Source: Aureimonas sp. SA4125
GTDB lineage: Bacteria > Pseudomonadota > Alphaproteobacteria > Rhizobiales > Rhizobiaceae
Direction: 5' to 3'
Assembly (NCBI RefSeq): GCF_019973775.1
Contig: NZ_AP025032.1
Span: forward strand, 2,666,001 to 2,730,000
Length of the DNA: 64,000 nucleotides
Below the pieces are notes generated by a model, which searched no databases, was not told the origin of the DNA, and saw only the letters and a program-made list of their open reading frames with translations. This document shows positions 27,242 to 54,935 of this stretch, piece by piece; position 1 is the first letter of the stretch, and the number at the start of each line of letters is the position of its first letter. Position numbers and translations under genes: made by a program.

Positions 27242-27846
27242 GCCTCATCCTCGGTCAGGGCCTCGTCCTGCGCGGGGGCCCCGCTGGCGATTAACGCGAG
27301 CCGCGCCGCGATGTCAGTGCTGAGGTCGAAGGCGATCTGCCGCAGCAGCACCCGGAGCCCATGCGCGCCCTCGCGCGACACCGCGACGGCCAGATCGTCG
27401 GCCCGGTTCGGGAGCTTGCCGATCAGGCTCTGGATCTCGCGGCCAGCCATTGTCAGCGCCTCGACCGTTCGATCGGCCCGGAACAGCCTGCCCCTCTCCT
27501 CGGCCTGTCGGATCCGCTCGCGCTCGACCTTCAGCCACTCGCCGAGCCGCCGCGCCTCTTCGAAGCTGTCCTTCTGGTCCGGGATCACCGCCTTGCCGGC
27601 GGCGTCCGGCCTCGGCACAGGCGCCTTGGCCGGATTGGAATAGCGGGACCGGTGATGATCCCAGTGCGCCAGCGAGACTTTCGATATCCGGCCTCGCCCG
27701 TCTCTCTCGACCGGGATTGCGTGGTCATCGACCAGGCCGATCACCACCTTCGAAACCGCCTGTCGCGAAATCCCGTCCCGCTCGGCGATTTGCGAGATCG
27801 CCCACATCACCCGCGGCGCATCATCCTCCATCGCGTCGCCTCGCAT
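27238..27846 (-). CDS. Terminase small subunit (Nu1-like)
   Basis: The 202-residue protein has an N-terminal winged HTH (MWAISQIAERDGISRQAVSKVVIGLVDDHAIPVERDGRGRISKVSLAHWDHHRS) and a helical oligomerisation region. The latter includes RRLGEWLKVERERIRQAEERGRLFRADRTVEALTMAGREIQSLIG. That resembles Nu1/TerS proteins that bind cos. It precedes and overlaps TerL. The start may be ATG at 27831, which has GAGG seven bases upstream, rather than 27846. Confidence 0.85.
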   Translation of the reverse strand: MRGDAMEDDAPRVMWAISQIAERDGISRQAVSKVVIGLVDDHAIPVERDGRGRISKVSLAHWDHHRSRYSNPAKAPVPRPDAAGKAVIPDQKDSFEEARRLGEWLKVERERIRQAEERGRLFRADRTVEALTMAGREIQSLIGKLPNRADDLAVAVSREGAHGLRVLLRQIAFDLSTDIAARLALIASGAPAQDEALTEDEA

Positions 27847-33192: not shown

Positions 33193-33239
33193 AGCGCCGC
33201 AGACCAAGCGAACGTACGATACGCCATCGCTTGTCCCGC

Positions 33240-33911: not shown

Positions 33912-35273
33912 TTACCCACCCCCTTGTCACGGGCCGAATTCCCTGAATCCATGGACGGATGGATCGCGGTGATTTGCAGCGTCTGACGAAGGAAGAGTTG
34001 ATCGATCTGGTGCTGAAGATTCAGCGTCCGGAGAAGACGTCACGCACATCCTCGAAGCCTCCGTCTAGTGACCGCAAGGAGCGCCGTGAGCAGGCAAGAC
34101 CTGGCGGCGCCAAGCCCGGTCACGAAGGCCACAGCCGAGCGATGGGTGAGGATTTCGATCGGCTCGTCGATCACCGTCCCGAGCAATGCTCCTGCTGCCA
34201 GGCAGCCCTGGCCGATAGCCTTCCCGCGGAGATCGGCGGCACGTACGAGACGGTCGATCTGCCGGAGATCAAGCCGTTCGTGACGCGTCATCGCCGGCTT
34301 TCGGTTTGTTGTCCTTCCTGCGGCACGCTTGTCTCAGCGGGATTGCCCGATGCGGCAAGGGGGACGCCGTTCGGGCCGCGGCTGCATGCGGTGGCGACCT
34401 ATCTTAAGACCTTCCAGGCCCTGTCCTATGAACGGCTTCAGAAAGCTCTGGCCGATCTCTTCGGCTTGCAGATCAGCCAGGGCGGGCTGATGAACATGCT
34501 GCGCCGGGCGCAGGGCACCTTCGTCGCCGACCGCGATCTCGCCATTGCCGCCCTGCGCCGCTCCAAGGTGGTGGCCTCGGACGAGACCGGCGTTCGCATC
34601 GAAGGCAGCAACGCCTTCCAATGGGTGTTTCGCTGCGATGACGCAGTCGTCCATCGTGCCGCTCCGACCCGTGGTGCCATCGTGGTCAGGACCCTGATGG
34701 ACGGGCACCGGCCAAAGGTCTGGTGTTCCGATCGCTACTCTGCCCAGCAGGGACATGCCGACGCCCATCAGACCTGTCTGGCTCATCTGGCCCGCGACGT
34801 CGCCTACGCCGAACAGGCGGGCGAGGATCTGCTGCCGTCGCGGCTGCGGATCTGGCTGTCCAAGGCTTTCGCTTTGGCCAGCGGCATCACGACCTTCGCC
34901 GCATCGACCATCGTCGCCAAGCGCCGTGCACTGGAGCGAAGTCTTTCCGAGATCCTCGCCGCACCGACCTCCTGCCCTTTCGCTCGAGTGGTCCAGCACA
35001 AGTTCAGGCGAGCGCGCGACCAGCTCCTGACCTTCACTCTCTGGACCGGGATGGTCGAGGCCACCAACAACGGCTGCGAGCGCGCCCTGCGACCGGCCGT
35101 GATCCAGCGCAAGGTCACCAACGGCTATCGATCCATGTGGGCCGCCGAAGGCGAAGCTGACATCCGAACCGTCGTCGATACCGCCCGGCTGCGCCAAGGG
35201 GGCAACGTCTTCAACACAATTCTCGAGACGGTAGGCGCCTGACATTCTACGGAATGCGGGGGTGGGTAATTAC
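33908..35273 (+). mobile_element. IS66-family element copy 2 (1366 bp)
   Basis: Identical in length to copy 1, with the same 16-bp terminal inverted repeat GTAATTACCCACCCCC. It is flanked by AAGGGAGC at 33900-33907 and 35274-35281, an 8-bp duplication. It lies opposite in orientation to the copy at 774-2139. Confidence 0.96.
33959..35242 (+). CDS. IS66-family transposase (single-ORF type)
   Basis: This 427-residue protein is identical to the product at 805-2088, with zinc finger CSCCQ/CCPSC and DDE-type stretches SDETGV, CSDRYS and VEATNNGCERALR. The start ATG lies 52 bp inside the element's left end. It is intact and presumably active. Confidence 0.95.
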   Translation: MDRGDLQRLTKEELIDLVLKIQRPEKTSRTSSKPPSSDRKERREQARPGGAKPGHEGHSRAMGEDFDRLVDHRPEQCSCCQAALADSLPAEIGGTYETVDLPEIKPFVTRHRRLSVCCPSCGTLVSAGLPDAARGTPFGPRLHAVATYLKTFQALSYERLQKALADLFGLQISQGGLMNMLRRAQGTFVADRDLAIAALRRSKVVASDETGVRIEGSNAFQWVFRCDDAVVHRAAPTRGAIVVRTLMDGHRPKVWCSDRYSAQQGHADAHQTCLAHLARDVAYAEQAGEDLLPSRLRIWLSKAFALASGITTFAASTIVAKRRALERSLSEILAAPTSCPFARVVQHKFRRARDQLLTFTLWTGMVEATNNGCERALRPAVIQRKVTNGYRSMWAAEGEADIRTVVDTARLRQGGNVFNTILETVGA

Positions 35274-35374: not shown

Positions 35375-36430
35375 TCACCGCCCCGCCCCCGCCCGCAATG
35401 CGATTCCCGGCTGGACGTCGCCCTGCCATTTCGTCCCGCCCGCAAGGCGCTTCAGCTCGAAGCCGAAGTTGCTGCGCTCGAGCGCGTCGAGGCGATGCTC
35501 GCGGCAGAAGGCGAGGTAGGCGGAGAAAGCGGCCCGTTTGTCGAGCCTGGCCGCCGCGTCAAGGACGAGGCAGCTTTCCGCGAAGCGGCGAAAGCCGGGC
35601 TCCGAGCTTGGCAGTGGCGCGTCGCTCCCGACGGCGCGGGGCGCCTCGCCCTCTGCGGCATAGCGCCGGCAGATTGCGTCCTCGCGCGGCAGGTCGTGAG
35701 GCAGAGGGCTGAGGCGCAGGAGCGCATCGGTGCGCGCCGCCGAGAGGCCGAGGCGGCGCCCAACTTCCGCCCGCGAGCGCGAATCCTCAGCACCTGCTTT
35801 CTCGATCGCAAGCGCCAGCCCCTCCGCCTGCATGGCAGGAGGCAGCGCCTCGAAGTCGGCGAGCGTCATCTGGAAATCGCCGAAGTCAGATCCCGTCCAG
35901 ATTGGTTCGGGCACGAAGCGTTGAAGATCGAGCATGGGTGTCTCCGTCGGCAGGGAGGAAGGCAGCGGCATGGTGGGCGGCGCGAGGTCGCCGGGCGAAG
36001 GCGTTGCTGGCGCCCGGGCAGTCACTGCCGGCGAGGCAGTCCCATCGATGTCGCGGCAGCACCCGGTGGACTGCGGTGGCATCCCGAGATGACGGGCGAT
36101 CTCGGCCGCGCGCCCGGCTGGATCGGCGGTGGCGGCATCGAGCCCGAGCTGATCGCACCAGGCGCGATAGCGCCGGACAGCGTTGAGCACCGTCGTGTGG
36201 TCGCGGCCGCCGAACTGTCGGCCGATCTCCGGCAGCGACCACGGCGATCCGCCACGCCGAGGCCCCGAACAGGAGAGAATGCCCATCGCCACAAACCGCG
36301 CCGGCACCACGGATCGCCACCGACGCGGGCCGCGCACCTGCCCGGGCTCGACGCCAAAGACCGCGGCGACGCGGCTGACAACGAAAGGAACCTGTGTGGC
36401 GAAAGGCGTGTTGTCGGGTGCGGTGGTCAT
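35375..36430 (-). CDS. DnaA domain IV protein fused to a novel C-terminal region
   Basis: The 351-residue protein begins with a DnaA-like double-strand DNA-binding domain (about residues 13-90). It contains SLPEIGRQFGGRDHTTVLNAVRR, which includes the DnaA signature GRDHTTV. There is no AAA+ ATPase domain. Residues 160-340 form a separate region with LPREDAICRRYAAEGEAP and FAESCLVLDAAARLDKRAAFSAYLAFCREHRLDALERSNFGFELKRLAGGTKWQGDVQ, the last part resembling primase-wing helices. It may recognise phage or host origin sites. The ORF start overlaps the MT-A70 stop by 4 bp. Confidence 0.85.
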   Translation of the reverse strand: MTTAPDNTPFATQVPFVVSRVAAVFGVEPGQVRGPRRWRSVVPARFVAMGILSCSGPRRGGSPWSLPEIGRQFGGRDHTTVLNAVRRYRAWCDQLGLDAATADPAGRAAEIARHLGMPPQSTGCCRDIDGTASPAVTARAPATPSPGDLAPPTMPLPSSLPTETPMLDLQRFVPEPIWTGSDFGDFQMTLADFEALPPAMQAEGLALAIEKAGAEDSRSRAEVGRRLGLSAARTDALLRLSPLPHDLPREDAICRRYAAEGEAPRAVGSDAPLPSSEPGFRRFAESCLVLDAAARLDKRAAFSAYLAFCREHRLDALERSNFGFELKRLAGGTKWQGDVQPGIALRAGAGR

Positions 36431-37020
36431 TGCGCGGCCTCAATGGCGGCGAATTTGTCGGCTTCGTTGCCGAAACTGTCCCAGCCCACACGACGCTGAC
36501 GCGCGAAAATGTCCGCCCGGCGCCCATCTGGCACCAGCGTTTCAATCAGCTGGTAGAATTCTTCGGGCTTGCGCGAATGCTCTCGCGCCAGCCCGTCGAC
36601 AGCGGCGTCGACCAGCGTCTCTAAGAGGTTCGGCACCTTGCCTCTGGCGATGGCGGCGCCTTCGAGGCGACCGACGAGGAATGGCTCGCAGACGGACCGC
36701 AGCACGTAGCCCGTGCCCCAGCGCAATTTGCCGTTGACGGTGCGCTTCGCCCAGACGCCGCCGGTGACCGGCGCGACGCCCCAGCCGCGCATGATGGCGC
36801 ACTGTCGTTCGATCAGCGGCCAGGTCGCCCACATCACCAGCACGCCCGAGGGCGCCAGCAGGTCGCCGACGCGCAGGGCCGCGATATCGTCGAGGCTCAT
36901 CGTCGCGTACTGCGCCTCAGGGCTCTTCTCCAGCCCCTTGTCGGAATAGGTGGCCCACGGCCAGGGCGGATCGACCATCACAACATCAAATGCGAAGAGC
37001 GGGAGCCCGAAGTCGATCAA
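36427..37020 (-). CDS. MT-A70-family adenine methyltransferase
   Basis: The likely start is TTG at 37020, seven bases past a GGGAGGGG ribosome site and overlapping the upstream stop (TTGA). This gives 197 residues. Motif IV DPPW is clear (FDVVMVDPPWPWATYSDKGLEKSPEAQYATMSLDDIAAL). The SAM-binding part lies around VLVMWATWPLIERQCAIMRGWGVAPVTGGVWAKRTVNG, followed by SVCEPFLVGRLEGAAIARG. Adenine methylation could protect phage DNA or regulate its genes. No partner nuclease is seen. Confidence 0.9.
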   Translation of the reverse strand: MIDFGLPLFAFDVVMVDPPWPWATYSDKGLEKSPEAQYATMSLDDIAALRVGDLLAPSGVLVMWATWPLIERQCAIMRGWGVAPVTGGVWAKRTVNGKLRWGTGYVLRSVCEPFLVGRLEGAAIARGKVPNLLETLVDAAVDGLAREHSRKPEEFYQLIETLVPDGRRADIFARQRRVGWDSFGNEADKFAAIEAAQ

Positions 37021-37226
37021 CGGCCCCTCCCATGCATGTCGTAGAGCGACCTCACCGAAAACACGTTCCAGAGCCGCTGCGCCCGGGCACCCGCGCGTTC
37101 CACCCGCGCCTGCGCGACGTCGCAGGCGACGGCCGCCCGCTTGAATTCCCGGCCTGCGAAATGGAACTGGATGAAAAGCGCGATGGCGGTCGTCGACCGC
37201 CACCAGCGCCGAAGCGCACGTGTCAT
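37017..37226 (-). CDS. Small hypothetical phage protein (69 aa)
   Basis: The 69-residue product (MTRALRRWWRSTTAIALFIQFHFAGREFKRAAVACDVAQARVERAGARAQRLW...) is basic at both ends and ends RSLYDMHGRGR. Its stop overlaps the TTG start of the methyltransferase gene in TTGA, which supports coupling. Family unknown. Confidence 0.6.
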   Translation of the reverse strand: MTRALRRWWRSTTAIALFIQFHFAGREFKRAAVACDVAQARVERAGARAQRLWNVFSVRSLYDMHGRGR

Positions 37227-37867: not shown

Positions 37868-38221
37868 CAATTTCAGGGAGGAAAAGCCCATGACGGGCAG
37901 GTGACGCGGTGCCCGGTCGACTTTCGGCCAGTTCTGCGAAAGAGTTCCCGCTATCCGAGCAACGGGGATGCGGCAGATGGTTTGGGCAGTGTTGGCGCTG
38001 GTCGGCATTCCGTCGTTCATACTGTGGGTTGTGATGCCCATGATGAGACGGGCCACAGCCACAGAGCTTGAAAACTCGGCCATGGTTCAGGCGCAGAGAG
38101 ACCTGGACGAAGCGAAAGAGCGTCGACGGGCACTCCGTGCTGTGATCAACGCCGGGACGATCGTGCCCGAGACCGAGGCCCGGAAAACTGCCACATGGAT
38201 TCCTCCGAAGACGCAGACATC

Positions 38222-39596
38222 GGTAGTGTCCGCGCTCGTGGTGGAAATTCCGACATTGAAAGGTGTGGCTGAGGCGGTCACCGGATAGGGCGGCTAAGGT
38301 GGAGTTGCGAGACTTCAACCTGACCGGAGAACCCGATGACCGAGGACAGACTACCGCTTGCCGAGCTTTTTGCGAAAGCCGGGGACGGCGATTTCCTGAG
38401 AACGATAGCCGAGAGCGTGATGCAGCTCCTTATGGAGGTCGACGTTGAAGGCATGATCGGCGCCGGGCGCCACGAACGGACGCAGGAACGGGCGACTTAT
38501 CGCAATGGCTACCGCGACCGCTCGCTCGACACGCGGCTCGGCTCGTTGCAGCTTCGGATACCCAAGCTTCGGCAGGGCAGCTACTTCCCGCCGTTCCTGG
38601 AGCCGAGAAAGCTCTCGGAGAAGGCCTTGGTTGCCGTCATTCAGGAAGCTTGGATCAGCGGCGTTTCCACCCGGCGGGTCGACGATCTGGTACAGGCCAT
38701 GGGGCTGTCGGGGATCGGCAAGAGCACCGTATCGAAGCTGTGCAAAGACATCGACGAACGCGTCGGCGGCTTCCTCGACCGTCCTCTCACTGGCGACTGG
38801 CCCTACCTCTGGCTGGATGCGACCTACCTGAAGCAGCGCGAGGGTGGACGCATCGTTTCGGTCGCCGCCATAATCGCCGTGGCCGTGAACACGGACGGCA
38901 AGCGCGAGATCGTCGGCCTTCACATCGGCCCCTCGGAAGCGGAGACGTTTTGGTCGAGCTTCCTCAAGAGCCTCGTGCGCCGCGGCCTGTCCGGCGTGAA
39001 GCTCGTGATCTCGGATGCTCACGAAGGGCTGAAAGCCGCCATTCGCCGGGTGTTCAGCGCCTCCTGGCAGCGCTGCCGGGTGCATTGGATGCGCAACGCC
39101 CTGTCGTATGTCCCGAAGGCGCAGCAGAGCATGGCGGCGGCCGCGCTGCGCCAAGCCTTCGCCCAGCCCGATCGTGCTAGCGCCAGCCAGGCGCTGCGCC
39201 ACGTCGCCGACCAGCTTCGGGGAAAGTGTCCAAAGCTCGGGGCCTTCATCGACAACAGCGAGACCGACGTGCTGGCGCACATGGATTTTCCCAGTCAGCA
39301 CCGGACCCGGATCCATTCGACGAATTCCCTGGAGCGCCTGAACAAGGAGGTGAAGCGGCGTGCCGACGTCGTCGGAATCTTCCCGAACGAGGGATCCATC
39401 ATCCGGCTCATCGGCGCCGTCCTTCTCGAGGCCAACGACGAATGGCAGATCCAGAACCGCTACATGCAGACCGAACCCATGGCCGACCTCATGGCCATGG
39501 GCAACACTGCAAAACCCGAACAGATTTCCACCGAAGTCGCCTGAAACGGAGCCGCTTCAGCTACACTCAATTTCCACCACGTTGACGGACACGACC
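38222..39596 (+). mobile_element. IS256-family element copy 3 (1375 bp)
   Basis: The ends match copy 2 (GGTAGTGTCCG at the left, CGGACACGACC at the right), with GTGGTGGAAATT just inside each. An 8-bp duplication CAGACATC is at 38214-38221 and 39597-39604. The orientation is opposite to copy 2, giving an inverted pair about 29 kb apart. Confidence 0.96.
38336..39544 (+). CDS. IS256-family (mutator-type) transposase
   Basis: The intact 402-residue transposase is identical to the product at 7903-9111, with catalytic motifs WLDATYLK, VISDAHEGLK and STNSLERLNKEV. It lies within the WYL-domain gene and is read in the same direction as it. Confidence 0.96.
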   Translation: MTEDRLPLAELFAKAGDGDFLRTIAESVMQLLMEVDVEGMIGAGRHERTQERATYRNGYRDRSLDTRLGSLQLRIPKLRQGSYFPPFLEPRKLSEKALVAVIQEAWISGVSTRRVDDLVQAMGLSGIGKSTVSKLCKDIDERVGGFLDRPLTGDWPYLWLDATYLKQREGGRIVSVAAIIAVAVNTDGKREIVGLHIGPSEAETFWSSFLKSLVRRGLSGVKLVISDAHEGLKAAIRRVFSASWQRCRVHWMRNALSYVPKAQQSMAAAALRQAFAQPDRASASQALRHVADQLRGKCPKLGAFIDNSETDVLAHMDFPSQHRTRIHSTNSLERLNKEVKRRADVVGIFPNEGSIIRLIGAVLLEANDEWQIQNRYMQTEPMADLMAMGNTAKPEQISTEVA

Positions 39597-40294
39597 CAGA
39601 CATCCATGGCGCAAGTGGCGCCTCAGGCGCTTCGCATCACGCCGTCGGGCGCACGTAACGCGCTGCTGATGGAATATGCCGACGCCTACGGCGAGATTAG
39701 CGAACGCGAGATCCACGCGCCGAAAATCAGCCGGTATGGCGACACGGTCTATATCGACGCGTGGTGCACCCTGCGAGGCGCCGAGAGGCAGTTTCGGGCC
39801 GATCGCATACTGCGCTTGTGGGACGCGGGCGGAACGCCGATCGCCGACGTGAATGCCTATTTTGAAGGGCGCGGCGACATGTGGGGTCGCCTGTTTCCGA
39901 TACCGGACGAGCACCGCCGGGCCATGGCGCGGGTGCGGCCTGGAACGCTTGCCCTCGTCTGGATCGCCAGAACAGACAGCGATGTCGACGCGGCCGAAAT
40001 GGCCGTCATCCTCGATTTCATGGACGCCCGGCTTCGCATCGGCGGACGTGAAGCGCCCGAGTTCGACCGGCATCTCGCCCGCATCACGATCGACGAGGCT
40101 GCGCCCATCAAGGCGCATGCCGTCAAAGCCGTGACGGAGATGAAGAAGGGGAGCGCCCAGGCGCTGCTTCTCGCCGACTATTCCGCCCGCCTTGTCGCCA
40201 GCGCGGGAGAGAGCGACCCGAAGAAGGCGGGACGGCGCCGCCAGTTGATGGCGCTGCTGGAGTAGAGAACTCGGCGAGATCAAAGCACGATAGC

Positions 40295-40568: not shown

Positions 40569-41273
40569 ATGCTGTCCCGGCGAAAAGTCGATATGGTTGA
40601 AACAGTCGGCTCCGTCATCCGTACTGCCCGCAAAAGTAGAGGCTTCGTGCAGCGCCAGCTAGCCGACGTTGCCGATGTAAGCATTGCCGCTGTCGGTCAG
40701 TGGGAACGCGGCGCCAATGACATCACCATGGAAAACCTTCGGAAGGTTGCTGTGCTGCTGGGCATCGACGCCGAAGCCGCCAACCGCGGCGAGTTGCGAT
40801 ACGTGGACGCGCCTGTGCTCCTCAATGAAGTCGAGAGGGTGACAGACAGCGGGTTTCCCACATTGGGTCCGATGGACATTCCCGTCAGCGGGGTAAGCGT
40901 TGGCGGGGATGACGCTGATTTTACATTCAACGGTCAGATCGTTGACCACGTCCGTCGACCTCCCGGCCTTATAAATCTGAAGAATGTCTTCGCTTTGCAC
41001 GTCCTCGGTGACAGCATGGCTCCGAGGTTTGAGCCCGCAGACCTTGTCTACTGTGGCGGTCGCCCCGCCGTGCCCGGCGACGACGTCGTTATCGAGATGT
41101 TTCCGTCGGCGGATTCGCCGGCAGGCAAGGGCTACATCAAACGCCTAATCAGCCGATCGGCCAGCGTAATCGTTGTCAGGCAATTCAACCCGCCTCGCGA
41201 GATTGAATTCGACCCATACGAGATGAAGGCGATGCATCGCGTAATTCCTTGGCGCGAAGTTCTCGGCTTTTGA
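40569..41273 (+). CDS. CI-type phage repressor (XRE HTH + S24 peptidase)
   Basis: The 234-residue protein combines an XRE HTH (VIRTARKSRGFVQRQLADVADVSIAAVGQWERGANDITMENLRKVAVLLG) with a LexA/CI S24 domain. VLGDSMAPRFEPADLVYCGG holds the nucleophile Ser149, and KGYIKRLI holds the general base near Lys191. A later start at ATG 40593 (MVETVGSV) is plausible. It would maintain lysogeny and be self-cleaved after DNA damage. It diverges from cro and opens the plus-strand early region. Confidence 0.92.
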   Translation: MLSRRKVDMVETVGSVIRTARKSRGFVQRQLADVADVSIAAVGQWERGANDITMENLRKVAVLLGIDAEAANRGELRYVDAPVLLNEVERVTDSGFPTLGPMDIPVSGVSVGGDDADFTFNGQIVDHVRRPPGLINLKNVFALHVLGDSMAPRFEPADLVYCGGRPAVPGDDVVIEMFPSADSPAGKGYIKRLISRSASVIVVRQFNPPREIEFDPYEMKAMHRVIPWREVLGF

Positions 41274-44006: not shown

Positions 44007-44347
44007 TCCGCGTGACCTTCGATCTCCTGCCCGGCGGCGACGCATCGCGCGCGCGCACCATCGGCCTGATGGAGATCGCCAACATCGCCACGCGCCCGGA
44101 CAACACCGCCGACTACTCGGTGATCCTGAAGAAGTGCCCGCCCTTCGCCGGCGCCTTGCGGGCTGCCTGGAAGAAGGGCCGCCTGACGATCGCCACCGAT
44201 GGCCGGATCGACGGGGTGATGACCGGCGAGGACGAGGAGCTGATTGCCGCCCTCGTCACCGGTCACCACCGGCAGCGACGCGGTGTCTACGACCTTTTCT
44301 TCCGCGCGCTTGCGGCCTGCGGCATCGACGGAAGGAACCCGGCATGA
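44003..44347 (+). CDS. Hypothetical early phage protein (114 aa)
   Basis: The 114-residue product (MIRVTFDLLPGGDASRARTIGLMEIANIATRPDNTADYSVILKKCPPFAGALRAAWKKGRL) has an alpha/beta pattern, with later DGRIDGVMTGEDEELIAALVTGHHRQRRGVYDLFFRALAACG. It starts in overlap with the preceding stop and ends overlapping the HD-domain gene start (ATGA). I do not recognise the family. Confidence 0.65.
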   Translation: MIRVTFDLLPGGDASRARTIGLMEIANIATRPDNTADYSVILKKCPPFAGALRAAWKKGRLTIATDGRIDGVMTGEDEELIAALVTGHHRQRRGVYDLFFRALAACGIDGRNPA

Positions 44348-45012
44348 ACGCCTGGTCGCAGACCGCCACGGGGCGGATCTTCTCTTTTGCCGATCCAGTG
44401 ATCGAGCCGGCGCACCTCTTCAGCGAAGTTGCGCACGGCCTGGCCCTCGTCAACCGGTTCGCCGGACAGACAGAGGTGCCGATCTCGGTTGCGCAACACA
44501 GCGTGCTGATGGCCGAGGAGGTGCTGGCCGAGACGGGTGATGCCGAGCTCGCCGCCTTCTGCCTGCTGCACGACGGACATGAATTCGCGCTCGGCGACTG
44601 GACGAGCCCGGGCGCCTTCGCCGTGCAGGAGCAGATGGTTGCCACCGCCCGCGCCGCCGGCGTGCCGGACCTTGTCGCCGAGGCGCAGGCCCTTCGGTTC
44701 AAGACGGCACTGCGCACCGTCAAGCGGCGGATCGACAAGGCGATCGTCAACGCCGCAGGGCTCGACTTCCAGCGGTTCCTCGACCGCGCCGACGAGATCC
44801 ACGCCTACGACATGCAGGCGCTTCTGACCGAGCGGCGCGACACCATGGCGAGGCCCCCGAAGCTCTGGGACGGCGACCGCGATGCCGCCGTGCGGCAGCC
44901 GCGACGCCGCAGGCTCACCTGCTGGGCATGGCCAAAGGCCGAGCAGCGCTTCGCCGAGTCCCTCATCCAACTCTGCCCCACCGCCGCCCGCGCCGCAGGC
45001 CGCGCCGCCTGA
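44344..45012 (+). CDS. HD-domain phosphohydrolase (5'-nucleotidase/dNTPase-like)
   Basis: The 222-residue protein contains the HD-type metal motifs: VAQHSVLMAEEVLAETGDAELAAFCLLHDGHEFALGDWTSP. That gives histidine, the HD pair and a further aspartate as in YfbR-like phage nucleotidases. The remainder (KTALRTVKRRIDKAIVNAAGLDFQRFLDRADEIHAYDMQALLTERRDTMARPPKLW) matches the helical lobe. It may adjust the nucleotide pool during replication. Confidence 0.85.
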   Translation: MNAWSQTATGRIFSFADPVIEPAHLFSEVAHGLALVNRFAGQTEVPISVAQHSVLMAEEVLAETGDAELAAFCLLHDGHEFALGDWTSPGAFAVQEQMVATARAAGVPDLVAEAQALRFKTALRTVKRRIDKAIVNAAGLDFQRFLDRADEIHAYDMQALLTERRDTMARPPKLWDGDRDAAVRQPRRRRLTCWAWPKAEQRFAESLIQLCPTAARAAGRAA

Positions 45013-45038: not shown

Positions 45039-45920
45039 ATGCGCAAGATCGACGTCTCTCCGGAGGACCGGCCGAAACACATCGACCCCGGCGCAGCACC
45101 AATGCTGCAGTGGGTACCGATCGAGCAGCTGGTGATCGACGAGGCCTACCAGCGCGACCTTAAGCGGGAGAACTGGGCGGCCATTCGCAGAATCGCAGCG
45201 CGGTTCAAGTGGTCGCGATTTTCGCCCGTCTTCGTCGCGCCAATCGAGGGCGGCCGTTATGCCGTTATCGACGGCCAGCACCGCACCCACTCCGCCGCCA
45301 TGTGCGGCTTCACGGAGGTGCCGTGCCAGATCGTCCAGATGTCGCGTGAGGAACAGGCGGCGAGCTTCGCCGTCGTCAATGGCGCGGTGACGAAGGTCAC
45401 CATCTTGCAGATCTACAAGGCAGCCCAGGCGGCGGGCGAGGAATGGGCGGGGCAGATCGCAACCGTCTGCAGTGATGCGGGCATGCGGATGCTGACCTAT
45501 GCGCCCTCGGTCAAGTCCGCCAAGGCCGGCGACCTCGTCTGCGTCGCCTTCATCCGCGATTTCATCGCGCGGCGGGGGCCGGAGGCCGCGACGGCGGCCC
45601 TGACGATCTTTCGAAGGGCCGAGGGGGTGGGCGACACGCCCGAATTCTACGCCCTGAAGATCTTCAAAGCGATCCTCGAGGCGCTCGCCTCGCGCCCGCA
45701 TTGTCTCGCCCGCCACGACGAGGCCGCTCAGTTTCTGACCAGAACAGACCTCTGGAAGCTCGTCGAGGAGGCTGAAGCCTTTGTTGCGCAGCGCCGCCGC
45801 GCCGGCCTCCCGAGCGTCGCCGCCCGCGACCTCCTGGAAAGCCTCGTCGGGGATGCTTTGGACAAGGCCCTACCCCAGCGAATGGCCTTGCCCGCGCCGA
45901 CAAGCTCAGAGGCCGCGTGA
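45039..45920 (+). CDS. ParB/Srx-like domain protein
   Basis: The 293-residue protein has a ParB/sulfiredoxin-type N-terminus: [78 protein letters not shown], with the GQHR motif. The rest is helical (SLEILTY-like; [44 protein letters not shown]). A ribosome site, GAAAGGA, lies before ATG 45039. Phage members may act in DNA modification, partition or regulation. The present role is unknown. Confidence 0.83.
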
Positions 45921-46492
45921 TGAGCGACGATCAGACTAACGTCGCCGCCGACGAGCTGCGCTCTTTCATCGAGCGCATCGAGCGCCTGGAGGAGGACAAG
46001 AAGGAGATCGGCGCCGACATCAAGGACGTCTACGGTGAAGCGAAAAGCCGTGGATACGATACCAAGGTAATGCGCAAGCTGGTCGCTATCCGCAAACAGG
46101 ATCAGAACGAGCGCCAGGAGCAGGACGCCATCCTCGAGCTCTACATGATGGCCCTCGGCATGGGCATCCAGGAGCGGCTGCCGCTCGCCGATGAGGACCT
46201 GCGCACCCGCCGCCCGGCGCGTAAGTCGATGGAGGACCGCGCAGCCGCAAGGCTGACAGAGGCCATGGCCGACACCAAGGACCTTTCGGCCGAAATGCTC
46301 GCCGACGGCTTGATCACACCGGAAGCGCACGCGGAAAATGTCGCGCTCTCCGATGCTGTTGCCGCGCGTGCCCACGGCCGGAAGTCCGCGAGAAAGGCCC
46401 GCAGCGCTGGCAAAGATAGGCCCTTGCACGCGGATGACGCGGAGGACGAGCGGCTGCGAAACGAACGGGCGAAGGGCCCGGTGTTCGCATGA
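45920..46492 (+). CDS. GapR/DUF2312-like nucleoid protein with long C-terminal extension
   Basis: Residues 1-85 fit GapR/DUF2312: [73 protein letters not shown]. This coiled-coil protein binds overtwisted AT-rich DNA and is typical of alphaproteobacteria. Host GapR is about 90 residues; this one is 190, with an additional basic and acidic helical tail ([19 protein letters not shown]). It might bind phage DNA during replication. Confidence 0.88.
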
Positions 46493-46800
46493 GCCGCGGG
46501 TTGGCCACCACCGTCTCGAAGACGTTCGACGTCCTCGTCGACGTCGACCTTTCTCTCGAAGACTTCGACGAAGATGATCTAGTCGAAGAGGTCAATCGGC
46601 GCGGTTTGGCAGCGACTATGGAATCCTTCGTGATTCATTTCGGCGAGCAGCGAGACATCGACTTCCTTGCCGACATGATCGCCGAATGTCGGACGCGCGA
46701 CGCACTCGACCAGCTGCGCCGGCTCTGCCCGTCCGCGCCGCACGCGAATGCCGTCCTCACCTTCGCCGCCGTCCGCAAAGCTTCGGGAGCAACCTCTTGA
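46489..46800 (+). CDS. Hypothetical early phage protein (103 aa)
   Basis: The 103-residue acidic protein starts [79 protein letters not shown]. It overlaps the GapR-like gene upstream by 4 bp and the sliding-clamp gene downstream by 4 bp (TTGA). Position between DNA-binding and clamp genes suggests a replication accessory, but no family is recognised. Confidence 0.65.
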
Positions 46801-47936
46801 CCCTCGCCTTCTCCTGCCCGCTCGCCCCCCTTCGCCGCGCCGTCGAGCGTGCCGGCACGACGAAGGTGGTCGAGCGCCGCAACACGGTCCCGATCCTCGG
46901 CAATGTCGCCCTCGCAGTCGAGGCCGATGGCAGCCTGACGGTGACCGGTACGGATCTCGACATCTGGGCGACCGCGAGCGAGCCGGCGGGGACGGCCGAG
47001 GTGAAGAGCCCCGGCGCGACCACCATGCCCGCAGGCCTCCTCCTCGACATCCTGAAGAAGGCTAGCGGCGACATCGCCATCGAGGACAAGGGCGTCGGCC
47101 GCGCCATCCTGAAGACCGGCCGCTCGCGCTTCACGCTGAACACTCTGCCCGTCGAGGACCTGCCGGCAGCTCCGGTGGACGAGGCGGGCGCCGCCCGCTT
47201 CGACGTCTCGCCGGCAATCCTGAAGCGCATCGACGACGCCGTCGCCTTCGCGATCTCGACGGAGGAGACGCGCTACTACCTGAACGGCATCTACCTGCAC
47301 ATCGCCAGCGCCGGCCCTACGCCCGTCCTGACGGCAGTCGCCACCGACGGCCACCGCCTGTCCCGCCTCGCCCTTCCCAGTATCGCCGTCGAGGGCGACA
47401 TGCCCGGCATCATCATCCCAAGAAAGACCGTCGGCCTCTTCACCCTCATCGGCGCCGCCGCCGAGGCGGCGATCGCCGTCACCGTCACCGCGCGCCGCAT
47501 CACCTTCGAAGCCTCAGGCCTGCGCATCGTCTCGAAACTCATCGACGGCACCTTCCCGGATTATCTCAGGGTCATCCCGCAGAACAATTCTGATATCGCA
47601 GAGACCGCGCGCGAGGCGCTGGCGAAGGCGATCGACCGCGTCTCGGCGATCTCATCGGAGCGCGGCCGGGCCATCCGCTGCGTCTTCGGCGAGAACGACG
47701 AGCTGACGCTCGCCGTCACTTCGCCCGACGCCGGCTCCGCGGAGGACGCGGTCGCGGCCACCGGCAGCTTCGACCCGATCGCCATCGGCTTCAACGCTCG
47801 CTACCTCGCCGACATCCTCGCCACCTTCCCCGGCGACTCCATCCGCTTCGCCCTCGCCGACCCCGGATCCCCCACGGTCATCACCGACCCCGCCGACGAG
47901 GACCGGCTCGTCGTGCTCATGCCGATGAGGGTTTGA
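46797..47936 (+). CDS. dnaN: Phage DNA polymerase III beta subunit (sliding clamp)
   Basis: The 379-residue protein is a full-length DnaN: LAPLRRAVERAGTTKVVERRNTVPILGNVALAVEADGSLTVTGTDLDIW, GVGRAILKTGRSRFTLNTLPVEDLPA, TRYYLNGIYLHI, AVATDGHRLSRLALP, VSKLIDGTFPDYLRVIP and the C-terminal DEDRLVVLMPMRV. It starts at TTG 46797, overlapping the previous stop. It forms the ring that tethers polymerase to DNA. A clamp in a prophage is rare and would bind host or phage polymerases. Confidence 0.95.
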   Translation: MTLAFSCPLAPLRRAVERAGTTKVVERRNTVPILGNVALAVEADGSLTVTGTDLDIWATASEPAGTAEVKSPGATTMPAGLLLDILKKASGDIAIEDKGVGRAILKTGRSRFTLNTLPVEDLPAAPVDEAGAARFDVSPAILKRIDDAVAFAISTEETRYYLNGIYLHIASAGPTPVLTAVATDGHRLSRLALPSIAVEGDMPGIIIPRKTVGLFTLIGAAAEAAIAVTVTARRITFEASGLRIVSKLIDGTFPDYLRVIPQNNSDIAETAREALAKAIDRVSAISSERGRAIRCVFGENDELTLAVTSPDAGSAEDAVAATGSFDPIAIGFNARYLADILATFPGDSIRFALADPGSPTVITDPADEDRLVVLMPMRV

Positions 47937-48118: not shown

Positions 48119-48417
48119 TCCCAAACATCACCGACCCACTGGGGCGGTACTGGAACCAGCCGAAAGACATCCGCGAGGCGCCGATGGACGAGACTCACGT
48201 CCTTCTCACGCCGCACCAGTTTCGCGAGCTCGCCGAATACAGCACGACCATGCCCAGCGGCGTCTATCCCGGAAAATGTTGGAAGCGCGAGCAGTTGGAG
48301 GTCACGCCGAAAGGCTGGCGGCCAACCGGCATTTGGGCTCTCGGCTGGTATGGCGAAAGCGAAAAAGGGCCGGGTTGGTGTTCCAATAACTGGCGCCGGA
48401 TTGAGGTCGTCGAATGA
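48115..48417 (+). CDS. Hypothetical early phage protein (100 aa)
   Basis: The 100-residue protein starts MIPNITDPLGRYWNQPKDIREAPMDETHVLLTPHQFRELAEYSTTMPSGVYPGKCWKREQLEV and ends with a tryptophan-rich stretch (IWALGWYGESEKGPGWCSNNWRRIEVVE). It may be a binding module. Both ends overlap neighbouring genes. Family unknown. Confidence 0.62.
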   Translation: MIPNITDPLGRYWNQPKDIREAPMDETHVLLTPHQFRELAEYSTTMPSGVYPGKCWKREQLEVTPKGWRPTGIWALGWYGESEKGPGWCSNNWRRIEVVE

Positions 48418-48785
48418 CCCGTCCCGTCCGCATCCGTCTCTCCCGCGCCAGGGGCTTCGACCTGCAGGCGCACTCGCGCGAGAGCAATGGCCTGTCCGCT
48501 ATCTCGGTCGCCCGCCCCGGCCCGTTCGGCAATCCCTTCGTCATCGGCCGCGATGGCGATCGCGAGCACTGCGTCTCGCTGCACCGCGCCGCGATGGACG
48601 GCTTGCTCACCATCACCACGTCGGTGCCGGCGGCGGAAGTGCGCGCCGTGCGCAGCGTCTTCATCGGTCGCTGGCGCGACCTCGCCGGCCACAACCTCGC
48701 CTGCTGGTGCCGCCTGGACGGCAAGCCCTGCCACGCTGACACGCTGCTCGAGGCGGTCGCGATAATGGAGAAGAACCATGGCTGA
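48414..48785 (+). CDS. DUF4326-like protein
   Basis: The 123-residue protein fits DUF4326: RIRLSRARGFDLQAHSRESNGLSAISVARPGPFGNPFVIGRDG, FIGRWRDLAGHNLACWCRLDGKPCHADTLLEA. The CWCRLDGKPCHAD segment carries two cysteines and a histidine. It overlaps the downstream Gp37/Gp68 gene by 8 bp, and such proteins are often phage-borne near modification or replication genes. Function unknown. Confidence 0.82.
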   Translation: MTRPVRIRLSRARGFDLQAHSRESNGLSAISVARPGPFGNPFVIGRDGDREHCVSLHRAAMDGLLTITTSVPAAEVRAVRSVFIGRWRDLAGHNLACWCRLDGKPCHADTLLEAVAIMEKNHG

Positions 48786-49740
48786 CCAGACCAACATCGA
48801 ATGGGCAGACTCGACCTTCAACCCGTGGATCGGCTGCACGAAGGTCTCGCCGGCCTGCGACCACTGCTATGCCGAGACGTTGATGGACAAGCGCCATGGC
48901 CGCGTTCAGTGGGGCCCACACGGTGAGCGCGTCCGCACCGCCGAGAGCAACTGGCAGAACCCGCGCCGCTGGCAGCGCCAGGCCGCCGCGTTCTTCGCCG
49001 AGCACGGCCGCCGGCGCCGCGTCTTCTGCGCCAGCCTCGCCGACGTGTTCGACAACAAGGCTCCCGCCGGCGCTCGGGACGATCTCTGGACGTTGATCCG
49101 CGAGACGCCGGATCTCGATTGGCTGCTGCTGACGAAGCGGCCGCAGAACATCTCGAAGATGCTGCCGGCGTTCTGGGGCGAGATCGCCGGGCATGTCTGG
49201 CTCGGGACGTCGACGGAGAACCAGGAGGAGGCCGAGCGCCGACTGCCTCACCTGCTCGCGGTGACGCCGCGCCCAGCCGTGTTCTTCGCCAGCGCCGAGC
49301 CGCTGCTGGGGAGGGTCGATTTCACGACCATCAAGCGCGCGTCTCCGCTCGGCAGCATGTCTGCTCTGCCGGCAGAACCCGGTGGCGTCTACCTCGACTG
49401 GATTATTGCAGGCGGCGAGAGCGGCCCAGGCGCCCGGCCGACGCACCCGGACTGGATTCGCTCTATCCGCGACCAGTGCACCGAGGCCAGCGTCGCATTC
49501 CTGTTCAAACAGTGGGGCGAGTGGAAAGCGGCGATCGACCGCGAGCGCGACGATCCTGATTGGCGCGCACCCTATGGCAGAGAGCTTCGCGACGAAGGCA
49601 AGACGCGCTGGCTCAACCTCGCTGGTGGGTGCGGGTTTCATGGCGATCGCTTTCATGTCATGCGACGAGTCGGCAAGAAGATCGCCGGGCGCCTCCTCGA
49701 TGACGTGTCGCACGACGGATTCCCGGAGCCCAGCCCATGA
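48778..49740 (+). CDS. Phage Gp37/Gp68-family protein (DUF5131)
   Basis: The 320-residue protein starts MADQTNIEWADSTFNPWIGCTKVSPACDHCYAETLMDKRHGRVQWGPHGERVRTAESNWQNPRRW, the diagnostic opening of Gp37/Gp68 phage proteins. The motif GCTKVSPACDHCYAE has three cysteines in a radical-SAM-like spacing. Later stretches (VFCASLADVFDNKAPAGARDDLWTLIRETPDLDWLLLTKRPQNI and DWIIAGGESGPGARPTHPDWIRSIRDQC) are also conserved. The reaction is not established. The mix with DUF4326 and HD hydrolase hints at a nucleic-acid modification role, which I infer only. Confidence 0.92.
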   Translation: MADQTNIEWADSTFNPWIGCTKVSPACDHCYAETLMDKRHGRVQWGPHGERVRTAESNWQNPRRWQRQAAAFFAEHGRRRRVFCASLADVFDNKAPAGARDDLWTLIRETPDLDWLLLTKRPQNISKMLPAFWGEIAGHVWLGTSTENQEEAERRLPHLLAVTPRPAVFFASAEPLLGRVDFTTIKRASPLGSMSALPAEPGGVYLDWIIAGGESGPGARPTHPDWIRSIRDQCTEASVAFLFKQWGEWKAAIDRERDDPDWRAPYGRELRDEGKTRWLNLAGGCGFHGDRFHVMRRVGKKIAGRLLDDVSHDGFPEPSP

Positions 49741-50501: not shown

Positions 50502-51263
50502 ATGTCGCAGAGTCTGCGCTACAGCGTCGAGCCGCGCGACGTCTCCCCGGAGAAGGCTGCCCGGCGGCTGGGCATCAGTCTCGACCAGTTCCGCGAACTC
50601 CTGCCACGACTTCTGTCGCGGGGGTTCCCTGCCCCCGATCTCGATACCGGCAACTTCGACCTGGACGAGATCGACCTCTGGCGCGCCTCACGCCACCGCC
50701 GCCGGGGCTTGCCTTCCGGCGACGCACCCGATCACTCTCTGGCTGAGGCGAGGCGAAGACTGGCGGCGATGCGACATGGCACGGGTGAAGATCCCCTATT
50801 ACGTGATCAAGAGGGGCCAGGGCTATTGGCAGCCGACGAAGGCGATGCGGGCTGCCGGCTTTGCCTCGATCCCCTGCGGACCGCACGGCCCGAAGGCTTG
50901 GGAGATCGCGGCGGAGTGGAACCTGCGCTGGCAGCGTCACAAGAGCGGCGTCGAGGAACCGGCGCGGCAAAAATGGCCACCCCGCTCCATCGGCGACGCC
51001 TTCGAGCGCTACCAGGCGACGACCATCTGGGCCAACAAGAAGCCAAGGACGCGGGAGGAGTGGGAGCGCGGGTTCGCTCGCATCTCGCCCGTGTTCGGGG
51101 ACATGCGCCCTGTCGATGCCGGCATTTCGCTGGAGACGCTCTCGGTTTTCCGCGACAGGATCCTCGCCAGCGTCTCACCTCGCGAGGCCTGGCGCACGAT
51201 CAAGATCTGGCGTGCCATTTGGACTGTCTGTCAGGCGATGGGTTACACGGAGGGCAGGTCTGA
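50502..51263 (+). CDS. Excisionase-like HTH protein whose frame runs on into the integrase gene
   Basis: The first 90 residues (MSQSLRYSVEPRDVSPEKAARRLGISLDQFRELLPRLLSRGFPAPDLDTGNFDLDEIDLWRASRHRR) look like a small excisionase/AlpA-type HTH. Beyond codon 92 the frame lies over the integrase gene in another phase for 488 bp and has shadow composition, without a stop until 51263. A normal gene should stop near 50780. Either the stop was lost or the protein carries an overlapping tail. The real C-terminus is uncertain. Confidence 0.55.
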   Translation: MSQSLRYSVEPRDVSPEKAARRLGISLDQFRELLPRLLSRGFPAPDLDTGNFDLDEIDLWRASRHRRRGLPSGDAPDHSLAEARRRLAAMRHGTGEDPLLRDQEGPGLLAADEGDAGCRLCLDPLRTARPEGLGDRGGVEPALAASQERRRGTGAAKMATPLHRRRLRALPGDDHLGQQEAKDAGGVGARVRSHLARVRGHAPCRCRHFAGDALGFPRQDPRQRLTSRGLAHDQDLACHLDCLSGDGLHGGQV

Positions 51264-51930
51264 TCCTTCGAAGGGAATTCAAAACTCTCAGCCCGCCGGC
51301 AAAAGCACAAGCTGGGCCTATGCCGAGGTTGTTGCGCTAGTGAAGGCCGCATGGCGGATGAAGCACTACGGCCTAGCCGCCGTCATTGCCGTCTCGTGGG
51401 ACACTATGCTGTCCCCCGCCGACATCCGGGCGCTCACTGTCGACAAGCTGGTCCAGGACAACGCGGGGGCCTACTTCACGACGGGCCGGGCCAAGACCGG
51501 CCGCGCCGCGATCGGCACCCTTTCGCGGCGGACGGAGAAGGTTCTGCGCGCCTATCTGGCGATTCGCCCTCTCAGCGTCGGTGTCATCTTCCGCAACCGA
51601 TCCGGCTCGCCCTATTCCCGTTTTACGCTGCCGGACGATTTCAAGGAGGTCCGCGAAGCGGCCTTCCCGACCGACACCCGCACGCTCTCGGATATGCGCC
51701 GCTCCGGCGCCATGGAAGCCCGCGCCGGCGGCGCCGATCCGGCGACCCTCTCAGCGAAGATGGCGAACAACATTTCGGTCTCGAACGCTCTGCACAAGGC
51801 CTACCAGCCGGTCGACCTGACATCGGTACGTCAGGCGGATCTGGCGCGGGGCGCAGGACGTAAAAAAATGATTGCTGAGGCTGAGGCCAAGCGTGAGACG
51901 CGCAACAAAGAAGGAATTTCCTCGAGCTAG
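50776..51930 (+). CDS. Phage tyrosine integrase with degenerate catalytic residues
   Basis: The 384-residue protein has an N-terminal arm (MARVKIPYYVIKRGQGYWQPTKAMRAAGFASIPCGPHGPKAWEIAAEWNLRWQRHKSG), a core-binding helix bundle, and a catalytic domain. The latter is AVIAVSWDTMLSPADIRALTVDKLVQ, then GRAKTGRAAIGTLS, then TRTLSDMRRSGAMEARAGGADPATLSAKMANNISVSNALHKAYQPVD. The Tyr in HKAYQP (about 342), the second Arg and the Lys are present. The first Arg appears as Ser (about 213) and the HxxR histidine as Ser. It may still act in its own clade. Confidence 0.88.
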   Translation: MARVKIPYYVIKRGQGYWQPTKAMRAAGFASIPCGPHGPKAWEIAAEWNLRWQRHKSGVEEPARQKWPPRSIGDAFERYQATTIWANKKPRTREEWERGFARISPVFGDMRPVDAGISLETLSVFRDRILASVSPREAWRTIKIWRAIWTVCQAMGYTEGRSDPSKGIQNSQPAGKSTSWAYAEVVALVKAAWRMKHYGLAAVIAVSWDTMLSPADIRALTVDKLVQDNAGAYFTTGRAKTGRAAIGTLSRRTEKVLRAYLAIRPLSVGVIFRNRSGSPYSRFTLPDDFKEVREAAFPTDTRTLSDMRRSGAMEARAGGADPATLSAKMANNISVSNALHKAYQPVDLTSVRQADLARGAGRKKMIAEAEAKRETRNKEGISSS

Positions 51931-53504: not shown

Positions 53505-54617
53505 TTACACGAACAAAAAGTCATTGGCGGCAAAGTCTGTAGCCGTAAGACTGTCCATAAAGTCCATAATTTCGACGCTGAATTTTACTCCTGCTGATGT
53601 GGTTACATTCAGCATTACGTCGCCGTCTGAATCATTCACGGCGAAAACAGTACCATTGCCTCCGCCTGCCTGATATTTTGTGACGCCTAAATTCTCGAGA
53701 ACGATCCGATCGACTCCGTCTTCAAAGTCAAAGACCTGGTCTCCACCGTCAAGTGCTCCGTAACCTTTGAAGACAAACCGGTCAGCGCCCGCACCACCCC
53801 AAAGATCATCCCAACCGAGTTCACCAATGAGGGTGTCAGCGTCAAGCCCACCCTTAATCGTGTCGGACCCGTTTCCGCCGTAAAACAAATCCATGCCGGC
53901 GCCGCCCTCCAGCAGGTCGTTCCCGTCTTCACCGCTGATGCTATCGTTGCCGCCGTCACCGTAAACAGTATCCGCGCCACCGCCGACTTCGATACGGTCG
54001 TTGCCTGACCCTCCATAGGCTAGGTCGCTGCCGGTCTCGCTGTCGATGATGTCGTTGCCGTCCCCTCCAACCAGGTGGTTGTTTCCGTCGCCCCCGTCAA
54101 CGCGGTCATCTCCAATGCCGCCATCAACGTAGTCATCTCCGGATTGCCCCTTTAGCTTGTCGTTGCCGCCTTCGCCGTAAATCCTGTCATTCCCGGCGCC
54201 GCCGCCAACGGCCTGTGACGTACGTTTACCGGAAGCCGGATCGATCTCATTCAAGAAACCATCATCACCGTCGCCGGCATAGATGAGATCGTTGCCAAAT
54301 CCGCCGTCAATGTACTCTCGACCCGCGCCACCATAGATCGTGTCGTCTCCCGAATCGCCCAAGATATGGTCATGCCCATCACCTCCGTCGATCAGGTCGT
54401 TTCCGTCTTCACCTTCGAATACGTCGTTACCAAGCCCGCCGTACATGCGGTCATGACCAGGGCCTCCATCAAACGAGTCGTTACCGTTCCCTCCGTATAG
54501 GAGATCGTTTCCCGCTCCGGGTTTGAGGAAGTCGTTACCCTCTTCGCCGTACATGATGTCGTCGAAAATAGTGCCCGTGAGGTAGTCAGACCTCATTGTT
54601 CCTTTAAACGTAGCCAT
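53505..54617 (-). CDS. RTX (calcium-binding nonapeptide repeat) protein
   Basis: The 370-residue protein starts MATFKGTMRSDYLTGTIFDDIMYGEEGNDF and carries about 20 GGxGxDxxx-type repeats (for example GGNGNDSFDGGPGHDRMYGGLGNDVF and GGDGNDIIDSETGSDLAYGGSGNDRI). It closes with a type I secretion-like end (GADRFVFKGYGALDGGDQVFDFEDGVDRIVLENLG...FVEI, FAANDFLFV). The fold is a calcium-stabilised beta roll. An AAGGG ribosome site precedes ATG 54617. No enzyme domain is seen. It lies between two inverted IS5 copies and may have come by transfer. Confidence 0.9.
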   Translation of the reverse strand: MATFKGTMRSDYLTGTIFDDIMYGEEGNDFLKPGAGNDLLYGGNGNDSFDGGPGHDRMYGGLGNDVFEGEDGNDLIDGGDGHDHILGDSGDDTIYGGAGREYIDGGFGNDLIYAGDGDDGFLNEIDPASGKRTSQAVGGGAGNDRIYGEGGNDKLKGQSGDDYVDGGIGDDRVDGGDGNNHLVGGDGNDIIDSETGSDLAYGGSGNDRIEVGGGADTVYGDGGNDSISGEDGNDLLEGGAGMDLFYGGNGSDTIKGGLDADTLIGELGWDDLWGGAGADRFVFKGYGALDGGDQVFDFEDGVDRIVLENLGVTKYQAGGGNGTVFAVNDSDGDVMLNVTTSAGVKFSVEIMDFMDSLTATDFAANDFLFV

Positions 54618-54935
54618 ACTCACCCTTTCCCAGGATTCTGTGTTGCAGGACGTGACGACGCAGCGAGCGGTACGCGTATGATGCAACGAAGCAGTCTACG
54701 CCAAGAGGATAACGTATATCTTTCAATGGGCTCGCGCTGTGCTCCTGGCGATAGGCCTAACGCCTAAAATGAAAATGTCCAGCCCTCTTCCGCATTCAGG
54801 AGGCATGGAAGGACGGCCCAAGTTAAACGTATCGTTGCAAGATCGTGCTCTAGCGCCCAGGCGCCTCGTGCACGATCACCTGGATCGCTGGCAGCGGATT
54901 AACCAGCCGAACCCAAATCTCGCGCAATCCAATTA
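54618..54935. other. Intergenic region, no gene supported
   Basis: This 318-bp stretch between the RTX start and IS copy 2 holds only a short open frame of unconvincing composition (from 54739). The stretch just upstream of the RTX gene is A/T-rich and could hold its promoter, but I see no clear -35/-10 pair. Confidence 0.4.

Follow-up and report, generated by a model that had tools for sequence, protein, structure and literature searches.

A phage-lineage sliding clamp gene with ParB-like and long GapR genes in a prophage of Aureimonas sp. SA4125

Why would a prophage carry a full-length bacterial-type sliding clamp (DnaN) together with a GapR-like and a ParB-like gene, and do these genes form a single replication unit? 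The question arises at positions 45039-47936 of a 64,000-nucleotide stretch of the Aureimonas sp. SA4125 genome (Alphaproteobacteria; Rhizobiaceae; NZ_AP025032.1, positions 2,666,001 to 2,730,000), the whole of which we call the window. An earlier note on this DNA had proposed that the three genes form one co-translated block and, with nearby replication genes, a self-sufficient or host-diverting replisome of an undescribed kind. Here we find that the clamp belongs to a phage lineage, and that the ParB-like and GapR genes are a recurrent pair. With a probability of roughly 60%, we read the clamp as serving phage replication forks together with host machinery, GapR as an optional addition, and the ParB-like protein as something other than a partition ParB.

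Results

Four overlapping genes make up the block

As read from the open reading frames (ORFs), four plus-strand genes run end to start across the block. The closest sibling that we found, IMG/VR contig 3300048856_000132 (L114), has the same order of ParB-like gene, small ORF and clamp gene.

45039-45920, plus strand: ParB-like protein of 293 amino acids (aa), ATG start; an ORF with a ParB/Srx-fold N-terminal domain, a DGQHR motif, a likeness to DUF6551 and a helical C-terminal part
45920-46492, plus strand: long GapR-like protein of 190 aa, ATG start; PF10073 (E=1.8e-34), GapR domain at about residues 1-81 followed by a C-terminal tail
46489-46800, plus strand: ORF103, a 103-aa orphan with a counterpart at the same position in L114
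46797-47936, plus strand: DnaN beta clamp of 379 aa, TTG start; three Pfam clamp domains, phrog_947

The ParB-like and GapR genes overlap by 1 nt (TGATG), GapR and ORF103 by 4 nt (ATGA), and ORF103 and dnaN by 4 nt (TTGA). The block is thus real, with the coordinates first given for it, and its genes do overlap, although by these amounts and not by the 1-8 nt proposed; GapR and DnaN, which had been taken as adjacent, are separated by ORF103, which had gone unnoticed.

The clamp belongs to a phage lineage

All three clamp domains (PF00712, PF02767 and PF02768) scored above cut-off in the phage DnaN with E≤1.5e-22, which makes it a full-length clamp of bacterial type. It also matched phrog_947, the phage DNA polymerase processivity factor family (E=5e-82), and TIGR00663 (237 bits, cut-off 138), and fell under the cut-offs of two narrower NCBIfam clamp models. 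The three best solved clamps align with it from residue 21 or 22 through the C-terminal end. Its motifs ATDGHRL, STEETRYYLNG, IIPRK, FPDY-RVIP and C-terminal MPMR are those of the host's own dnaN product; ATDGHRL and MPMR, which we take to be motifs of the partner-binding pocket, are identical across the window, L114, Aurantimonas phage AmM-1 and the host.

Was this gene recently taken from the host? The host genome holds a single other clamp match (C1:1791-2855), which is 48% identical to the phage protein. We built a quick, unrooted maximum-likelihood tree (LG+G4, SH-aLRT support without bootstraps) of 132 clamps, 91 from phages and 41 from genome contigs, the latter being 40 of 80 (every second one) plus the host's own; the host clamp alone was placed by genome position, and the other genome-contig rows are possibly not chromosomal. 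Eighteen near-duplicate phage rows were removed, and L134 and L228 were lost through short matches. The phage DnaN fell into an eight-row phage-only clade (SH-aLRT 100) with L114, AmM-1 and the viral contig L115, while a branch with SH-aLRT 89 set apart the 41 genome-contig clamps, the host's among them; phage clamps were spread over several branches. The low identity and the separate tree positions rule out a recent capture of host dnaN, a possibility that the earlier note had raised.

That note had also held host-type genes of this sort to be rarely combined in one phage. As single parts they are not rare in phages, with matches in 84 phage records for the clamp and in 155 for GapR. Sixty-seven of the clamp records match over at least 80% of the query, and some are annotated as clamp or processivity factor. 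AmM-1 (AB967974) has a full-length clamp that is 55% identical to that of the window, and its early region resembles the window's in having a CI repressor with an adjoining leftward operon; unlike the window, it has no ParB-like or GapR match within a 15-kb stretch, and it carries, some 6 kb downstream of the clamp, a gene annotated ParA. Rhizobium phage 16-3 likewise has a bacterial-type DnaN (p081) in an early gene cluster, with sigma-factor and exonuclease genes downstream of it, unlike the window.

Two side observations concern the clamp family. A few of the matching phage records, for example two from Salmonella, resemble bacterial sequence deposited as phage, and phrog_3007, whose label is RusA-like resolvase, hits the middle of the clamp sequence (5.7e-15), so that this family is perhaps mislabelled.

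ParB-like and GapR genes recur as a pair

Co-occurrence was assessed with profiles built in this analysis, in viral loci reaching up to 10 kb on either side of a seed gene, many of them limited by contig ends. The seeds were the best 80 of 566 clamp relatives, the best 80 of 117 ParB-like relatives and the best 80 of at least 532 GapR relatives; contigs noticed as common to the seeded sets are L114/L218/L376, L115/L220, L169/L277 and L276/L328. A ParB-like and a GapR gene stood on one strand within 400 bp of each other, in either order, in 15 of the 20 ParB-like-seeded loci with both genes (15/80 overall). When GapR was placed at random within those loci, the mean was 0.5 close pairs and the maximum 5 in 20,000 trials; the loci are not independent, related phages being counted repeatedly.

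All three genes together were met less often. Clamp-seeded loci held a ParB-like gene in 5/80 cases, GapR in 1/80 and all three in 0/80; ParB-like-seeded loci held a clamp in 20/80, GapR in 20/80 and all three in 8/80; GapR-seeded loci held a clamp in 9/80, a ParB-like gene in 5/80 and all three in 1/80, on the same contig as one of the eight. Four of those eight (L228, L246, L247 and L276) have the ParB-like gene, GapR, a stretch of about 2.2 kb and the clamp on one strand, with L228 and L247 related to each other (83% identity in the ParB-like protein, 88% in GapR and 77% in the clamp). The neighbours do, then, co-occur elsewhere (the pair in 15/80 loci and all three in 8/80), which the earlier note had left in doubt.

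A control seeded with DUF5131, wider in scope than alphaproteobacterial phages, held a clamp in 3 of 40 loci, a ParB-like gene in 2, GapR in 4 and all three in none. Compared with this control, the ParB-like set was richer in clamps (p=0.026) and almost significantly richer in GapR (p=0.057); inside the ParB-like set the association between GapR and clamp was not significant (Fisher p=0.13), and the Fisher tests ignore relatedness among loci. Across whole records, GapR scored above cut-off in 1 of 50 clamp-bearing records (a second one fell below it) and a ParB-like gene was found in 4 of the 50, while 5 of 50 GapR-bearing records had a clamp. At the level of the order, 18 of 297 genomes, the host's own counted, carry a ParB-like relative, and the regions around 16 of the 19 genomic ParB-like matches (the own genome, G094 and G176 set aside) held a clamp in 0/16 and GapR in 2/16, one of them adjacent. 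A scan of the viral contigs with the single ParB-like sequence confirmed no relative; the alignment-based scan did.

The sibling L114 has no PF10073 match in its record. Its ParB-like gene ends at 9726 and its small ORF starts at 9723, and the GapR of the window sits exactly at that junction. GapR was therefore gained as a cassette in the window or lost as one in L114, and the block is not indivisible. Together, the co-occurrence counts and the GapR-less sibling rule out a single fixed ParB-GapR-DnaN unit, and the idea of one block is unsupported, with all three genes in none of the 80 clamp-seeded loci and no significant GapR-clamp link. In the literature searched we found no paper on a joint ParB-like/GapR/clamp operon, a statement limited to that search.

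The GapR protein combines a host-like domain with a tail

The GapR protein reached 117.6 bits against PF10073 (cut-off 22.6), over about the first 81 of its 190 residues. It passed the subfamily model NF010247 (123 bits, cut-off 94) and fell short of the equivalog NF052541 (96 bits, cut-off 140); judged on these scores, it would be a GapR-domain protein and is not filed as an orthologue of Caulobacter GapR. The latter has 89 aa (GapR1-89, PMC7373187), so the earlier description of a double-length GapR was right as to length, whereas the GapR part is limited to those first residues. Eight DNA-contact residues are named in PMC7498317; in an alignment read by eye, K34, K42, K49, K56, K60 and K66 are kept, K59 is replaced by R, and R63 by A. 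The window protein thus shares the DNA-binding domain and most contact residues with Caulobacter GapR (UPF0335, PF10073), and differs from it by a C-terminal tail of about 110 residues.

The tail has the motif consensus SEAM-D-K--SAEM---GLIS-EAHAEN-AL-DAVA, which recurs in 23 others of the 120 listed GapR proteins as well as in two viral loci; in the sequences scanned it never occurred without a GapR domain. The predicted structure has tail helices at 104-128 and 134-162, with pLDDT of 86-95 over residues 111-150; the model is weak as a whole (pTM 0.33), and a fold search with it gave a best E of 1.6.

Among the sequences compared, the closest to the domain is the second gapR of the host genome (G000:C1:1151215; three GapR matches in all), which may not be the main chromosomal gene. 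Identity to it is 86.7% over 75 residues, against 60-75% to 29 GapR loci of the same family, these being the fetched loci that scored best against the Pfam profile, from a longer match list. The DNA of the phage gene and this second gapR is 80% identical over 225 nt, with differences at 14 of 24 four-fold sites, so the phage gene is not a fresh copy of host gapR, and recent copying is not supported. A GapR tree of 77 columns was poorly resolved. An older capture from the host lineage would be the likeliest origin of the domain on this sequence comparison, with strong constraint remaining as the alternative explanation of the likeness. With 155 matching records, GapR relatives are common in phages, in contrast to a claim in PMC12185513 that presents them there as a first-time finding.

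The ParB-like protein is probably not a partition ParB

Four family models touched this protein, namely ParB_N (PF02195; 18.4 bits, cut-off 26.3), TIGR00180 (21.9 bits, cut-off 58.45), DUF6551 (PF20188; 19.7 bits, cut-off 26.8) and the DGQHR family. Since all four matches lie below cut-off, we did not file it as a partition ParB. Among 356 relatives in a protein search, the organisms named in the 120 listed were all alphaproteobacterial as seen; some of these 120 carry PF20188, and the window protein, being under that cut-off, is therefore called near DUF6551 only. The conserved core has the consensus DGQHRTHAA. An AlphaFold2 model (mean pLDDT 89) matched Noc (E=2.8e-6), ParB, KorB, PadC and sulfiredoxin in Foldseek, pointing to a ParB/Srx N-terminal fold; the TM scores by query are low, at 0.21-0.36 for the listed matches to Noc, ParB and KorB.

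Could it nevertheless be a true partition ParB that lets the phage persist as a plasmid, GapR being a nucleoid organiser? The top Foldseek matches (Noc and ParB) and a hit to phrog_1033, labelled ParB-like partition protein (E=3.2e-20), would fit. We consider it very improbable, because ParB_N and TIGR00180 stay below their cut-offs, the fold match is partial, and DGQHR stands where ParB proteins have their GERR-type motif; moreover, an integrase is present, and no ParA match was found among the ORFs scanned (small ORFs and parS sites were not searched). The product is probably an early phage protein of ParB/Srx fold with a DNA-binding or regulatory role.

A role in steering DNA modification, with the neighbouring genes as passengers, has a precedent in print, where it is proposed for ParB-like proteins encoded beside phage terminase genes; PMC6536676 describes, for Paracoccus phages, ParB-Tls loci and fusions of ParB to methyltransferases. 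In L228 (7275-9731) and L276 (4914-7052), moreover, a large gene with an MT-A70 domain (E ~1e-20) and a sub-cut-off ParB_N match lies between GapR and clamp. The terminase genes of the window (25226-27846), in turn, lie about 17 kb from its ParB-like gene, and the sole methyltransferase seen (36430-37203) belongs to another operon about 8 kb off, which leaves this reading unlikely for the present locus.

ORF103 and a comparison with T4

ORF103 had no match in Pfam, PHROGs or NCBIfam, and a protein search recovered itself alone. Its relative in L114 is syntenic, 93 aa long and 54.5% identical over 99 columns, and L238 gave a weak profile match (2e-6). No convincing clamp-binding peptide was seen in it by eye.

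T4 DsbA has been called a GapR homologue (PMC7824862). The dsbA gene overlaps gene 33, which encodes a protein that works with the clamp in late transcription (PMC2988020); the same paper describes DsbA as non-essential and without effect in the T4 in vitro system, and cites a 1991 paper whose title reports enhancement by DsbA. No T4 late-transcription family matched among the window ORFs scanned. The T4 gp45 clamp is not known to resemble DnaN in sequence. By analogy, the GapR tail, ORF103 and the clamp might conceivably act as one coupled device that speeds phage forks or clamp-activated late transcription, an independent counterpart of T4 DsbA-gp33-gp45 with a recruited host-derived GapR domain; we rate this as a long shot.

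Prophage setting and mosaicism

Leftward of the block lie genes for tail sheath, baseplate, tape measure, portal, head protease, major head protein and terminase. The block most likely belongs to the rightward early operon of a temperate phage with a contractile tail; further genes of this phage are listed below.

25226-27846, leftward side: terminase genes
30136-31929, minus strand: D5-type helicase/primase; PF08706, phrog_1156 (E=2e-126)
31933-33207, minus strand: Toprim-type primase; phrog_510 (E=4e-79)
35375-36430, minus strand: DnaA domain IV protein of 351 aa; PF08299 (E=1.1e-13) at residues 17-87, its sole match above cut-off
36430-37203, leftward operon: methyltransferase, the one seen; phrog_359
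40569-41273, plus strand: CI-like repressor heading the rightward early region; HTH_3, S24 slightly under cut-off, phrog_4
44344-45012, plus strand: deoxyribonucleoside 5'-monophosphate phosphatase-like upstream early gene; phrog_318 (E=2.9e-35), no Pfam match
48414-48785, plus strand: DUF4326 protein 3' of dnaN; PF14216 (E=5.3e-17)
48778-49740, plus strand: DUF5131 (Gp37/Gp68-type) protein; PF07505 (E=2.1e-80)
50776-51930, plus strand: integrase; phrog_1 (E=6.7e-15), PF00589 under cut-off

L114 matches this layout, with Toprim and D5 genes leftward and CI, ParB-like, ORF, DnaN, DUF4326 and DUF5131 genes rightward, and its record also has a DnaA domain IV. Identities are 68% for CI, 55% for the ParB-like protein, 76% for DnaN, 88% for DUF4326 and 67% for DUF5131. 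Beyond DUF5131, two more ORFs are common to both, followed in L114 by an integrase that does not match that of the window; neither the window's integrase nor its genes at 43164, 43724, 44344, 47933 and 48115 have a match in L114.

This patchwork brings forward a serious rival reading, in which the genes of the block merely piled up in a mosaic early operon and have no joint role. Identity to L114 runs from 31% to 88% along the region, where five window genes and the integrase are unmatched, the closest sibling has no GapR, and the histories of GapR and clamp differ. The ParB-like and GapR genes, set side by side in 15 of 20 loci (not independent ones) against a random mean of 0.5, speak against mere accumulation. 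We hold a pile-up to be possible, though less likely than not.

Several other features of the region were seen in passing. Two stretches of 1377 bp (7850-9226 and 38221-39597) are 100% identical and oppositely oriented, each with a Mutator-type transposase ORF. Recombination between these identical insertion sequence (IS) copies could invert about 29 kb, and the left copy may have broken tail genes. The DUF5131 protein matches the PADLOC candidate-defence models PDC-M41B and PDC-M30B. A reading of the block itself as a defence system was rejected, with 0/4 of its proteins matching PADLOC. Beside the prophage, a minus-strand gene (53505-54686) encodes a repeat-rich protein of GGxGND type, RTX-like by eye.

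The leftward replication genes

The Toprim primase, D5 helicase and DnaA-like gene cited earlier in support of a replisome are all present, the DnaA-like match being to domain IV only, with TIGR00362 far below cut-off. No clamp loader matched among the ORFs scanned (some small ORFs were left out), and the only polymerase-labelled match among them is that of D5 residues 269-580 to phrog_2478 ('DNA polymerase/primase'), so a self-sufficient replisome is not supported. With 50 of 80 loci taken in each set, DnaA domain IV was found in 14/50 clamp-bearing and 9/50 GapR-bearing records (p=0.34), or in 13/50 and 7/50 when only matches above cut-off are counted (p=0.21). It is not significantly commoner with the clamp, and an undescribed system is unsupported.

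The DnaA domain IV protein also has a below-cut-off Pox_D5 match near its C-terminal end, and its L114 counterpart is apparently a shorter ORF of 215 aa. A plus-strand ORF inside this leftward operon (33959-35242) matches a transposase family (phrog_688, 1.2e-7).

Discussion

The gene content of the block, its order, overlaps and families, the separate histories of its genes and their mosaicism can be read directly from the DNA. The biochemical roles of its proteins we infer from sequence, those of the clamp and GapR because of their family membership. The phage clamp would be loaded by the host clamp loader and would then keep host Pol III, and other partners that bind its pocket, on phage forks, which may be opened by the DnaA-domain-IV protein of the phage with its primase and D5 helicase. 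As an optional module, the long GapR would probably ring overtwisted phage DNA and ease supercoils at forks or busy genes.

Several points weigh against such a role at phage forks. The clamp could be used in repair or recombination instead, and a prophage with two identical IS copies may not be active. D5 and Toprim are only 31% and 39% identical to their L114 counterparts although the clamp is 76% identical, so the clamp and the primase set need not travel together. Four strict DnaA-box patterns gave 0 exact matches in the 64 kb, which leaves initiation by the DnaA-like protein unproved, and the link between clamp and DnaA domain IV in phage records, not being significant, counts on the same side.

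Clamp and GapR might also act against the host, the clamp competing for the clamp loader, Pol III or HdaA and so disturbing host replication; HdaA, the alphaproteobacterial Hda, needs the clamp to switch off DnaA. The host pocket motifs kept in the phage clamp would allow it to bind host partners, and its gene is coupled to other early genes. The same motifs are equally expected of a clamp that simply works, and we noticed no inhibitory feature, none having been specifically searched for. We consider an anti-host role improbable, and prefer that of a phage-lineage clamp working with host machinery at phage forks.

New here are the gene order with ORF103 and the host-like GapR domain with its tail, clamps and GapR proteins of these kinds being already known. 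The locus looks less like a new machine than like a gene neighbourhood of a known kind in an unusual arrangement. To judge from the quick, unrooted tree, bacterial-type clamps seem to make up phage lineages of long standing in alphaproteobacterial viruses, and the pair counts suggest that a ParB-like and a GapR gene repeatedly occur as neighbours in alphaproteobacterial phages. Should its use be confined to phage forks, the clamp would give an opening for studying how a phage that relies on the host polymerase labels the replisome as its own.

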